Below, in pieces: positions 26,338 through 30,256 of a stretch of DNA of 64,000 nucleotides. This DNA comes from Candidatus Arsenophonus lipoptenae. GTDB taxonomy: Bacteria > Pseudomonadota > Gammaproteobacteria > Enterobacterales > Enterobacteriaceae. Location of the stretch: NCBI RefSeq assembly GCF_001534665.1, contig NZ_CP013920.1, positions 496,001-560,000 of the forward strand, in the 5' to 3' direction. Under the pieces are notes generated by a model that was given only the letters and a program-made list of their open reading frames with translations, was not told where the DNA came from and ran no database searches. The first letter of the stretch is position 1. Each line of letters opens with the position of its first letter. Position numbers and translations under genes: made by a program.

Positions 26338-26644
26338 AGCTTATTATATACTTTAATTAATATCTTATAAAAAAATATTTATTTATTACACTTATAAAAC
26401 TAAATATTTTTTGTTAAACTAAATTTTATATAAAATTTATTAATTAGTAAATGATTTAATAGCTTATAGATTTATTATTTGTATTAGTAATAGTATTTAG
26501 TAATAGTATATTGAAATATTTTTATTAAATAAGGTGCTTTTGAGTAATAAAATTATTATAATTTAGTAAATAGAGCACTAATTTTAGAAAATAGAAAAAA
26601 GAAAGAATAAAAATAAATTATTGATAGAAAAGCAAAAAAAATTA
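26338..26644. other. Divergent spacer rsmD-ftsY
   Basis: About 307 A/T-rich bases between divergent genes. It also covers the region that in other enterobacteria encodes the start of the long acidic FtsY A domain; no acidic reading frame remains, only scattered stops. Repeated TAGTAATAGTAT-like strings occur around 26486-26510. Confidence 0.45.
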
Positions 26645-27586
26645 ATGAAAGAAAATTTTCTTACATATTTAAGAAATAAATTATTAAAAACAAGACAAAA
26701 TATAGGAGTTAATTTAATCAATTTTTTTAAAAATAAAAAAATTGATTATGATTTTTTTGATCAATTAGAAGAACAATTATTAATAGCTGATCTTGGTATA
26801 GAGACAACTAGAAAGATTATAAATAACTTAATTTCTTATACAAGTAGTAAAAAAATTAGTGACACATCTTTGCTTTATAGTATCTTGCGTGAAGAAATGA
26901 AAAAAATTTTATTTACTGTTGATAAACCGGTTATGATAAAAGATACAATATTGTATATTATCTTAATGGTAGGGGTTAATGGTTCTGGTAAAACTACAAC
27001 AATTGGTAAATTAGCACGTCAATATCAAGAAAAAGGCAAATCGGTCATGTTAGTTGCTGGAGATACATTTAGAGCTGCAGCAATAGAACAATTACAATTT
27101 TGGGGGGAATATAATAATATTCCTGTTATTTCTCGTCATACTGGTGCAGATCCTGCATCAATTATTTTCGATTCTATTCAATTAGCAAAAATTAAAAAAA
27201 TTAACATATTAATTATAGATACTGCTGGAAGACTACATAATAAATTATATTTAATGGAAGAATTAAAAAAAATTATTAAAGTTATAAAAAAAATTGATCA
27301 AGAAGCACCTCATGAAGTACTGCTAACTGTAGATTCTAGTACTGGTCAAAATGTAATAAATCAGGTTAAAATTTTTCATGATATGGTTAGTTTAACTGGT
27401 ATAATTGTCACTAAACTTGATGGTACTGCTAAAGGCGGTGTAATTTTTAGTATTGTTGATAAATTTAAAATTCCAATTCGTTATATTGGCATTGGTAATG
27501 GTGTTTATGATTTAAGAAAATTTGTAGCTCATGATTTTATTGAGGCTATTTTTGTCAGAGATAAAAAAATTAATGATTTCTTTTGA
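26645..27586 (+). CDS. ftsY: Signal recognition particle receptor FtsY (NG domain only)
   Basis: 313 residues from the ATG at 26645; a TTG at 26621 would add eight. E. coli FtsY has 497 residues because of an acidic ~190-residue A domain that is absent here. FtsY receives the Ffh-4.5S RNA-ribosome complex at the membrane and delivers nascent membrane proteins to SecYEG. The N domain (LEEQLLIADLGIETTRKII) and G domain (GVNGSGKTTTIGKLA, AGDTFRAAAIEQLQ, DTAGRLHN, TKLDGTAKGG) are complete, ending GNGVYDLRKF...FIEAIF. The basic amphipathic N-terminal segment FLTYLRNKLLKTRQNIG, which binds lipid in NG-only receptors, is preserved. The end overlaps ftsE by 14 bases. Confidence 0.94.
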   Translation: MKENFLTYLRNKLLKTRQNIGVNLINFFKNKKIDYDFFDQLEEQLLIADLGIETTRKIINNLISYTSSKKISDTSLLYSILREEMKKILFTVDKPVMIKDTILYIILMVGVNGSGKTTTIGKLARQYQEKGKSVMLVAGDTFRAAAIEQLQFWGEYNNIPVISRHTGADPASIIFDSIQLAKIKKINILIIDTAGRLHNKLYLMEELKKIIKVIKKIDQEAPHEVLLTVDSSTGQNVINQVKIFHDMVSLTGIIVTKLDGTAKGGVIFSIVDKFKIPIRYIGIGNGVYDLRKFVAHDFIEAIFVRDKKINDFF

Positions 27587-28235
27587 AAATGTTAGTAAAG
27601 TTTACTATAGCAGTAAACAAGCACTCCAAAGTATTAATTTTCATATCATTTCTGGAAAAATGATTTTTCTTGTTGGTAGTTCTGGTTCTGGTAAAAGTAC
27701 GTTATTAAAATTGCTTTATGGTATTGAGCGTCCTACTACTGGTAGTGTTTGGTTTAATGGTTGTGAAGTTAATCGTTTAAAAAAGACAAAATTACCTTTT
27801 TTACGTCGTCAGATAGGTATGGTTTTTCAAGATCATCGTTTGTTATTTGATAAAAATGTATATTATAATGTCTCTATTCCTTTACTTATTACTGGTTTTA
27901 GTATTGATGTTATTAGACGTCGTGTTTCCGCTGCTTTAGATAAAGTAGGTTTGATTAATAGGGCAAAAAGTTTTCCTATTCAATTATCACATAAAGAGCA
28001 AAAAAGAATAAGTATAGCTCGTGCTATTGTTAATAACCCTAGTGTATTATTAGTAGATGAACTTACTGATTGTTTTGATATTGATGACAAATTATCCAAT
28101 AATATAATAGAGTTATTTGAAGAATTTAATAGAATTGGTGTAACAGTTTTGATTGCTACTCATAATCCAGATCTTATTTCTAGCTATAAATATTCCATAT
28201 TAAAATTAAATAATGGAAGAATGATAGAAGGTTAA
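27573..28235 (+). CDS. ftsE: Cell division ATP-binding protein FtsE
   Basis: 220 residues, E. coli 222. FtsE is the ABC ATPase of the FtsEX complex, which controls periplasmic cell-wall amidases at the septum. The Walker A GSSGSGKST (about residues 35-43), Q-loop MVFQDH and switch His197 in ATHNPD are intact. However, the ABC signature LSGGEQ is LSHKEQ (residues 138-143), and the segment after Walker B, normally DEPTGNLD, is DELTDCFD. Walker B Asp and Glu remain. A longer frame begins at 27531, but the ATG at 27573 gives MISFENVSKVYYSSKQAL, the family start. Located between ftsY and ftsX as in E. coli; only one base separates it from ftsX. Confidence 0.94.
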   Translation: MISFENVSKVYYSSKQALQSINFHIISGKMIFLVGSSGSGKSTLLKLLYGIERPTTGSVWFNGCEVNRLKKTKLPFLRRQIGMVFQDHRLLFDKNVYYNVSIPLLITGFSIDVIRRRVSAALDKVGLINRAKSFPIQLSHKEQKRISIARAIVNNPSVLLVDELTDCFDIDDKLSNNIIELFEEFNRIGVTVLIATHNPDLISSYKYSILKLNNGRMIEG

Positions 28236-28236
28236 T

Positions 28237-29190
28237 ATGGCTAAAAAACCTATCTATAAAATTAAAAAATTAAAAGGTGGTTGGTTAGATAAGTATAGAT
28301 ACGCATGGTTAGATACATTATCGGATATATTACGTCAGCCTTTATTTACAATGCTAACTATTATTGTGATTTCTATTTCGATAACAATACCAACCATATT
28401 TTATATGGTATGGAAAAATATTTCACAAATAAACGAAAAATGGTATCAAATCACTCGAATAACTATCTTTTTAGATAAAAATTTATATCAACATAGTTTT
28501 AAAAAACATTTTATTATACTTAGCAAAATAAAAAATATGAGAAATATAGATTTTTTATTAGAAAAAAATATTTTGAGTAAATTTTTGAGTTGGTTAGAGT
28601 TTAATTCTAAATTTACTTTTTTTAAAAAAAATAAGTTATCATCTTTAGGTATTATGATTTCTGAAATTAATTTTCAAAATTCAAAATCATTGTTGTACTT
28701 AAGTAATCAATTAAATAAATTAAGTGTAATTAAAAATATTCGTATATATAACAATTGGTTTATGAATTTATCATTATTAACTGATTTAATTGGGAAAATT
28801 ACAATAATAATTAGTATTTTTATGGTTATAACTATTTTTTTAGTGATAAGTAATAATATTAGATCAAATATCTTTTTTCGTAGAGATATGATTAATGTAA
28901 TGAAATTAATTGGAGCTACAAATAGTTTTGTTATGCGCTCATTTTTAAATAGTGGTATTATATTAGGATTTTTAGGTTCTTTACTTGCATTAGCATTATC
29001 AATTATATTTATGTGGAAAATAAATAGTAATTTTATACAAATAACTAGTGGTTTCATTGGTATTAGAATAATAAATATTCAAGGTTTTTTATGGAATGAA
29101 ATTTTAATTATTATTTTTATTTCTACAATAATTGGATGGATTACAGCTTGGTTAACTACAATTCAATATTTAAGAAGTTTTGCAGAATAA
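28237..29190 (+). CDS. ftsX: Cell division protein FtsX
   Basis: 317 residues, E. coli 352. It is the integral membrane partner of FtsE. Four hydrophobic segments are visible: about residues 39-60, 185-208, 235-260 and 284-305. A large external loop lies between the first two (about residues 60-185), the region that contacts the amidase activator EnvC in E. coli. The N terminus is shorter than in E. coli. DKYRYAWLDTLSDILRQPL matches the cytoplasmic entry helix, and FRRDMINVMKLIGATNSFV is the MacB/FtsX coupling segment. GAAGG ribosome-binding site overlaps the end of ftsE. The membrane protein composition is normal even though the FtsE signature is altered. Confidence 0.93.
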   Translation: MAKKPIYKIKKLKGGWLDKYRYAWLDTLSDILRQPLFTMLTIIVISISITIPTIFYMVWKNISQINEKWYQITRITIFLDKNLYQHSFKKHFIILSKIKNMRNIDFLLEKNILSKFLSWLEFNSKFTFFKKNKLSSLGIMISEINFQNSKSLLYLSNQLNKLSVIKNIRIYNNWFMNLSLLTDLIGKITIIISIFMVITIFLVISNNIRSNIFFRRDMINVMKLIGATNSFVMRSFLNSGIILGFLGSLLALALSIIFMWKINSNFIQITSGFIGIRIINIQGFLWNEILIIIFISTIIGWITAWLTTIQYLRSFAE

Positions 29191-29404: not shown

Positions 29405-30256
29405 ATGATTAAAGATATGCAATCATTAGTATTACTTTCGCAAAGTAGCATTGAAGCTTATGTAAGATTAGCCAATGCTTATCCAATACTAACAGCTGAT
29501 AAAGAAAAGGAATATGCAAAAAAATTACACTACTATAGTGATTTAAATGCAGCTAAACAACTTATATTATCTCATTTGCGTTTTGTTATTCATATTGCAC
29601 GTAATTATTCAGGTTATGGATTACCACAAGCAGATTTAATTCAAGAAGGTAATATTGGGCTCATGAAAGCTGTTCGGCGTTTTAATCCTGAAGTTGGAGT
29701 ACGTTTAGTTTCATTTGCTGTTCATTGGATTAAAGCTGAAATTCATGAATATGTGTTGCGTAATTGGCGAATAGTAAAGGTAGCTACTACGAAAGCTCAA
29801 CGTAAACTTTTTTTTAATTTGCGTAAAAATAAAAAACGTATTGGATGGTTTAATCAAAATGAAATTGATATTGTTGCTAATGAGTTAGGTGTTACTAGTA
29901 AAGATGTGCGAGAGATGGAATCTAGAATGGCTGCACAAGATATGGCATTTGATATGAATGATAATGATCATGACAATGCTTCTGCACCTGTTTTATATAT
30001 ACAAGATAAAACTTCTGATTTTGCTGATAGTATTGAAGAAAATAATTGGGAAAATCATGCGACTGATAAATTAACTCAGGCAATTTCTACTTTAGATAAG
30101 CGTAGTCAAGATATTATCTATGCCAGATGGTTAGATGATGAAAATAAAACTACTTTGCAAGATTTAGCTGATAAATATTGTGTATCTGCTGAGAGAGTGC
30201 GTCAGTTAGAAAAAAATGCTATTAAAAAACTTAAGTTTATGATAGAATCAACATAG
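29405..30256 (+). CDS. rpoH: RNA polymerase heat-shock sigma factor RpoH (sigma-32)
   Basis: 283 residues, E. coli 284. RpoH directs transcription of heat-shock chaperones and proteases. Regions are well kept: 1.2 ([16 protein letters not shown]), 2.1-2.4 ([34 protein letters not shown] and [22 protein letters not shown]), and the sigma-32-specific RpoH box [10 protein letters not shown] near 133-142. Region 4.2 is present ([19 protein letters not shown]). A GAGG site sits upstream of the ATG at 29405. It follows ftsYEX as in E. coli. The 214-base upstream region may carry regulatory promoters, but I cannot identify them, and an RNA thermometer was not assessed. Confidence 0.97.

Follow-up and report, generated by a model that had tools for sequence, protein, structure and literature searches.

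How does an ABC ATPase come to be encoded by an open gene when the motifs at which its two subunits meet across ATP have been altered, and what can such a protein still do? The question is raised by ftsE of Candidatus Arsenophonus lipopteni. In E. coli, closure of the FtsE dimer by ATP shifts the periplasmic domains of FtsX, EnvC bends, and the amidases AmiA and AmiB are switched on. The present organism is a symbiont of the deer ked (PMC5027103), and its genome (hereafter G000) is one contig of 836,724 bp with 24.8% GC. The window analyzed is a stretch of 64,000 nucleotides from this contig (NZ_CP013920.1, positions 496,001 to 560,000), and its relevant features are collected in Table 1. The order ftsY-ftsE-ftsX-rpoH is that of E. 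coli, which supports the orthology of ftsE; the 3' end of ftsY overlaps the start of ftsE by 14 bp, and ftsY served as our control for the rate of change. The best model for FtsE is the NCBIfam equivalog TIGR02673, with 249.3 bits (below the curated cut-off of 264.85) and the next family 80 bits lower, while FtsX scores 209.6 bits with TIGR00439, under the cut-off of 255.

Table 1. Features of the ftsEX locus, in positions of the window.
Feature	Position	Strand	Description and basis
ftsY	26621..27586	+	SRP receptor NG domain; upstream operon gene; ORF list; 62% identity to E. coli FtsY
ftsE	27573..28235	+	220 residues, frame open; ABC-type ATPase subunit of FtsEX; 61% identity to E. coli FtsE
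Walker A GSSGSGKS	27675..27698	+	kept; translation, ABC comparison
ABC signature	27984..28001	+	LSHKEQ replaces LSGGEQ; translation and alignment
Walker B Asp-Glu	28056..28061	+	kept; translation and alignment
6-bp insertion (two residues, CF)	28071..28076	+	between Walker B and D-loop; alignments; placement uncertain within about 28068-28082
Switch (H-loop) His	28161..28163	+	kept; alignment
ftsX	28237..29190	+	317 residues, frame open; membrane subunit of FtsEX
FtsX periplasmic domain (E. coli 93-220)	28405..28788	+	31% identity to congener G003
FtsX X-lobe (E. coli 145-171)	28561..28641	+	EnvC-docking surface; decayed, 6/27 consensus residues
rpoH	29405..30256	+	downstream gene; ORF list, E. 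coli protein search

Lesions in the nucleotide site of FtsE

An earlier note on this DNA reported LSHKEQ in place of LSGGEQ, together with a conserved Walker A, Walker B Asp-Glu and switch His, and translation and alignment of ftsE bear out both statements. FtsE retains the elements expected of an ABC nucleotide-binding domain in Walker A, the Q-loop (FQD), Walker B with its Glu (LLVDE) and the switch His (in ATHN); the signature LSGG[EQ] is absent from it, and the spacing of the D-loop from Walker B is not normal. The string DELTDCFD, also reported earlier, is present (28056-28079), but it does not match DEPTGNLD residue for residue, since FtsE carries two extra residues: the alignment runs DELTD-CF-DIDDKLS in the symbiont against DEPTG--NLDDELS, and the same two-residue gap was recovered in a HMMER alignment to E. 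coli FtsE. There is no premature stop or frameshift in ftsE or ftsX. The predicted structure has the normal FtsE fold, with 8hd0 as its best structural match (TM-score 0.95); model confidence is lowest (67-71) at residues 161-180, which include the D-loop.

Could these motifs result from an error of sequencing or assembly? The data come from a single genome of the species, which gives this reading some room. However, going from GGN GGN to the HK codons takes at least four base changes, whichever GGN codons are taken as the start, and the error would also have to insert 6 bp without disturbing a reading frame that is otherwise open. Because of the number of changes needed, and because the published assembly is based on 40x Illumina data polished with Pilon (PMC5027103), a base-calling slip is unlikely; other symbionts, moreover, show similar erosion. 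We therefore regard an artifact as extremely improbable.

Because the nearest ftsE shares 68% amino-acid identity and dS was judged saturated, the changes were evaluated through amino-acid branch lengths and counts of invariant sites. The second signature glycine (G141) is invariant in 51 of 51 aligned FtsE sequences with intact motifs, and the first (G140) is replaced by S, A or T in some free-living species (e.g. LSTGE, LSSGE). These 51 sequences define 82 invariant columns, 12 of which are broken in the symbiont, as against zero to two in each of 12 intact sequences treated by leave-one-out; judged by this alignment, the breakage of FtsE motifs exceeds chance. Clustering of the breaks in residues 137-170 is marginal (p = 0.034). 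A genome-wide erosion of ABC ATPases was considered and rejected: the genome encodes 12 further clear ABC ATPases, and each has retained an [LV]D D-loop and the second glycine of the signature.

Among the sequences seen, the HK pair is not a common variant of functional FtsE in free-living relatives. When 84,980 species genomes were scanned with patterns, among them the peptide QLSHKEQK, no HKEQ relative came up (such a scan detects near-exact peptides only), and none was present among the aligned sequences. The five congeners in which ftsE is intact, which have large genomes, all read LSGGEQ and DEPTGNLD (for G008 the alignment covered residues 37-220). Eroded signatures do occur outside the genus, in four reduced symbionts with an open ftsE: LSRGEK in G046 and G060, LSNSEK in G182, and LSICEK in G226, where G046 and G182 are presumably Baumannia. 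The switch His is lost in G060 and G226. Because of these four cases, erosion of FtsE is recurrent in symbionts, while among the sequences seen HK and the D-loop insertion are private to G000.

EnvC and the docking face of FtsX

A tblastn search with the E. coli protein found no EnvC in the genome outside a masked 5 kb. Congeners have envC flanked by hldD on one side and yibN-secB on the other; the hldD-yibN gap of G000 is ∼490 bp long and empty, with no trace of the gene. Thus envC has been cleanly deleted at its syntenic site, and because this gap is empty the masked sequence is unlikely to hide envC. The masked stretch itself (G000:C1:627501-632500, outside the window) reads N and interrupts ftsB.

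The earlier note described FtsX as complete. This holds for the length of its open frame, but the face that docks EnvC has decayed. The X-lobe, which is the EnvC-docking part of FtsX (PMC7668044), has 6 of 27 consensus residues in G000 and 23 of 27 in congeners; the count is 3/27 in G226, which lacks EnvC, and 16-18/27 in G046, G182 and G060, which have it. G060 is the best control for loss of the X-lobe, because outside the X-lobe its FtsX has diverged to the same degree as that of G000 (111 and 115 of 271 consensus residues, respectively). The limits of the periplasmic domain (93-220) were our own choice; within them identity to congener G003 falls to the value in Table 1, against 57-63% in the rest of the protein. 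Invariant sites of FtsX are broken at 17 of 30 periplasmic positions versus 7 of 39 elsewhere (p = 0.001), and the same test gives p = 0.014 in EnvC-less G226 and p = 0.69-1 in the eroded genomes that have EnvC. The distance between G000 and G003 relative to that between E. coli and G003, taken from gene trees of fixed topology, is 2.83 for the FtsX periplasmic domain, 1.67 for FtsE, 1.29 for FtsY and 1.15 for the membrane part of FtsX. A separate observation concerns G182, whose ftsX (G182:C1:66000-76000) has two in-frame stops, near positions 101 and 172 of the E. coli protein, and for that reason looks like a pseudogene although EnvC is kept.

What is new here is the deletion of envC at its syntenic place and the divergence of the FtsX periplasmic domain and X-lobe alongside the loss of FtsE motifs. 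The envC deletion and the decay of the docking face support the suggestion, made in the earlier note, that selection on division control has been relaxed in a symbiont, and loss of EnvC is a likely cause of that relaxation on FtsEX.

Within the genus, decay is seen at several stages. G006, which has a large genome, carries an envC (G006:C9:72974-74209) with in-frame TAG and TAA codons, and its FtsE and FtsX are intact; in G007 envC is undetected and ftsE is a pseudogene, the X-lobe of FtsX is near-normal, and gene loss looks recent; G004 has neither envC nor ftsE, and G005 is without ftsE. The series G006, G007, G004 supports an order in which envC would be lost first, with G007 represented by a draft of 330 contigs. 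A general rule by which FtsE erodes only after EnvC is lost was rejected: FtsE is eroded in G046, G182 and G060 with EnvC present, and loss of EnvC is therefore not the sole route. Among 100 genomes tested for EnvC, both proteins occur in 14 (one with a broken envC) and neither in 80; EnvC without a good FtsE is found in 4 (one with both broken), and an FtsE frame without EnvC in 2, G000 and G226, both eroded. No tested genome has an FtsE with intact motifs and no EnvC. Because kinship and reduction are shared among these genomes, this co-occurrence is a pattern rather than an independent test.

These data also bear on whether the FtsE motifs might be compensated, so that a working ATPase moves FtsX for another partner. 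Sequence alone leaves room for a replacement partner, and the retained Walker A, Q-loop, Walker B and switch His, like the predicted fold, would suit an active enzyme. However, the glycine lost does not vary among intact FtsE or among the genome's other ABC ATPases, the length of the D-loop is altered, no HKEQ relative was found, and the known docking surface is gone. We consider compensation very unlikely.

What remains of FtsEX, and the probable route of cell separation

The explanation that we consider probable is that FtsEX of G000 is a machine uncoupled after the loss of EnvC. With envC deleted, FtsEX would be left with nothing to push, and because EnvC is lost selection would be gone both on the ATP stroke, that is, on the second signature glycine and D-loop register of the ATP sandwich, and on the X-lobe. 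FtsE would still bind nucleotide through Walker A but would probably form no closed ATP dimer. The earlier note envisaged a complex that binds ATP and turns it over slowly; because the lesions sit where the two ATP-sandwiched subunits meet, a failure to close the sandwich is probably the better description. In E. coli, FtsEX without hydrolysis still binds FtsA and recruits EnvC, but septal synthesis is blocked (PMC7343993). FtsA G366 and the FtsZ tail are retained in G000, and an ATP-locked FtsEX might therefore be harmful; we infer that the lesions would prevent closure rather than trap the closed state. Bypass of FtsEX through FtsA R286W or G366D was rejected, both residues being wild type. 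The E. coli ftsEX genes can be deleted at raised osmolarity (PMC7343993), and by analogy the interior of a host cell may be osmotically similar to this permissive condition.

Why, then, are both frames still open? Had the genes decayed neutrally along the entire branch, ftsE would be expected to carry ∼6 stops and ftsX ∼17, and none is observed; constraint therefore persisted along most of the branch or is still in force. Selection may be keeping FtsEX as an ATP-independent scaffold that joins FtsZ and FtsA at the septum, with ATP hydrolysis and EnvC binding discarded and its other contacts preserved. The absence of stops agrees with this, as do the retained FtsA G366 and FtsZ tail, the membrane part of FtsX, which diverges no faster than FtsY, and FtsE outside residues 137-170, where 11 of 87 invariant sites are broken (13%), the same share as in FtsY (17/135). 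The same data are nevertheless compatible with constraint having been lost recently; FtsE taken over its full length has diverged faster than FtsY, ftsE and ftsX have been wholly lost from related reduced genomes, and predicted ATPase mutants of E. coli fail to rescue growth in low salt (PMC7668044). Selection for a scaffold is in our judgment unlikely, and it is rather unlikely that a selected, ATPase- and EnvC-independent FtsEX serves as a purely structural part of the divisome while NlpD activates AmiB instead of EnvC. Under uncoupling, the remaining complex would be a passive divisome scaffold at most, or would simply not yet have been lost.

E. coli queries detected the division proteins FtsA, FtsZ, FtsI, FtsW, FtsQ, FtsL, FtsB, AmiB, NlpD and MepM in G000; the same kind of search found no AmiA, FtsK or ZipA. 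AmiB (G000:742709-743860, 48% identity to E. coli AmiB) qualifies as an EnvC-class amidase and is the sole amidase of its Pfam family in the genome. Its activator-binding helix SQAVLDLQF is retained, which suggests that AmiB still requires a LytM activator. NlpD is the obvious candidate, and in the uncoupled state daughter cells would probably separate through AmiB activated by NlpD. Elsewhere in the genome, FtsN (G000:C1:397648-397902, outside the window) matches the E. coli protein over its first 90 residues only. TolB and Pal are retained (G000:C1:778-2579, outside the window) and TolQ, TolR and TolA were not found in G000, so that the energised part of another envelope system is missing.

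Relation to known systems

The locus works as an experiment of nature that separates the parts of FtsEX devoted to EnvC from those devoted to the divisome: in the absence of EnvC, conservation is lost in the X-lobe and the ATP sandwich but not in the membrane part of FtsX. Because ATPase-dead FtsEX blocks division in E. coli, the symbiont complex bears on the distinction between failure of closure and failure of hydrolysis. The genus Arsenophonus offers a series of stages in the loss of this module, in which the division machinery is coming apart piecewise.

The E. coli FtsEX-EnvC-AmiA/B system, a type VII ABC mechanotransmitter (PDB 8hd0, 8w6j, 6TPI), resembles that of G000 in gene order, in fold and in the identity of FtsE (61%). 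In contrast to it, G000 has neither EnvC nor AmiA, its signature and D-loop are broken, and its X-lobe has decayed. FtsE of G046, G182, G060 and G226 is like that of G000 in combining an open gene with a non-consensus signature, but EnvC and the X-lobe are both present in G046, G182 and G060, and none of the four has HK or the D-loop insertion. A precedent for NlpD acting on AmiB comes from Vibrio cholerae, where Moll and colleagues (2014, cited in PMC8416486) reportedly described a single amidase, AmiB, modulated by two activators. Whereas two activators act on the one amidase of V. cholerae, G000 has lost EnvC and retains NlpD as the only canonical amidase activator found.
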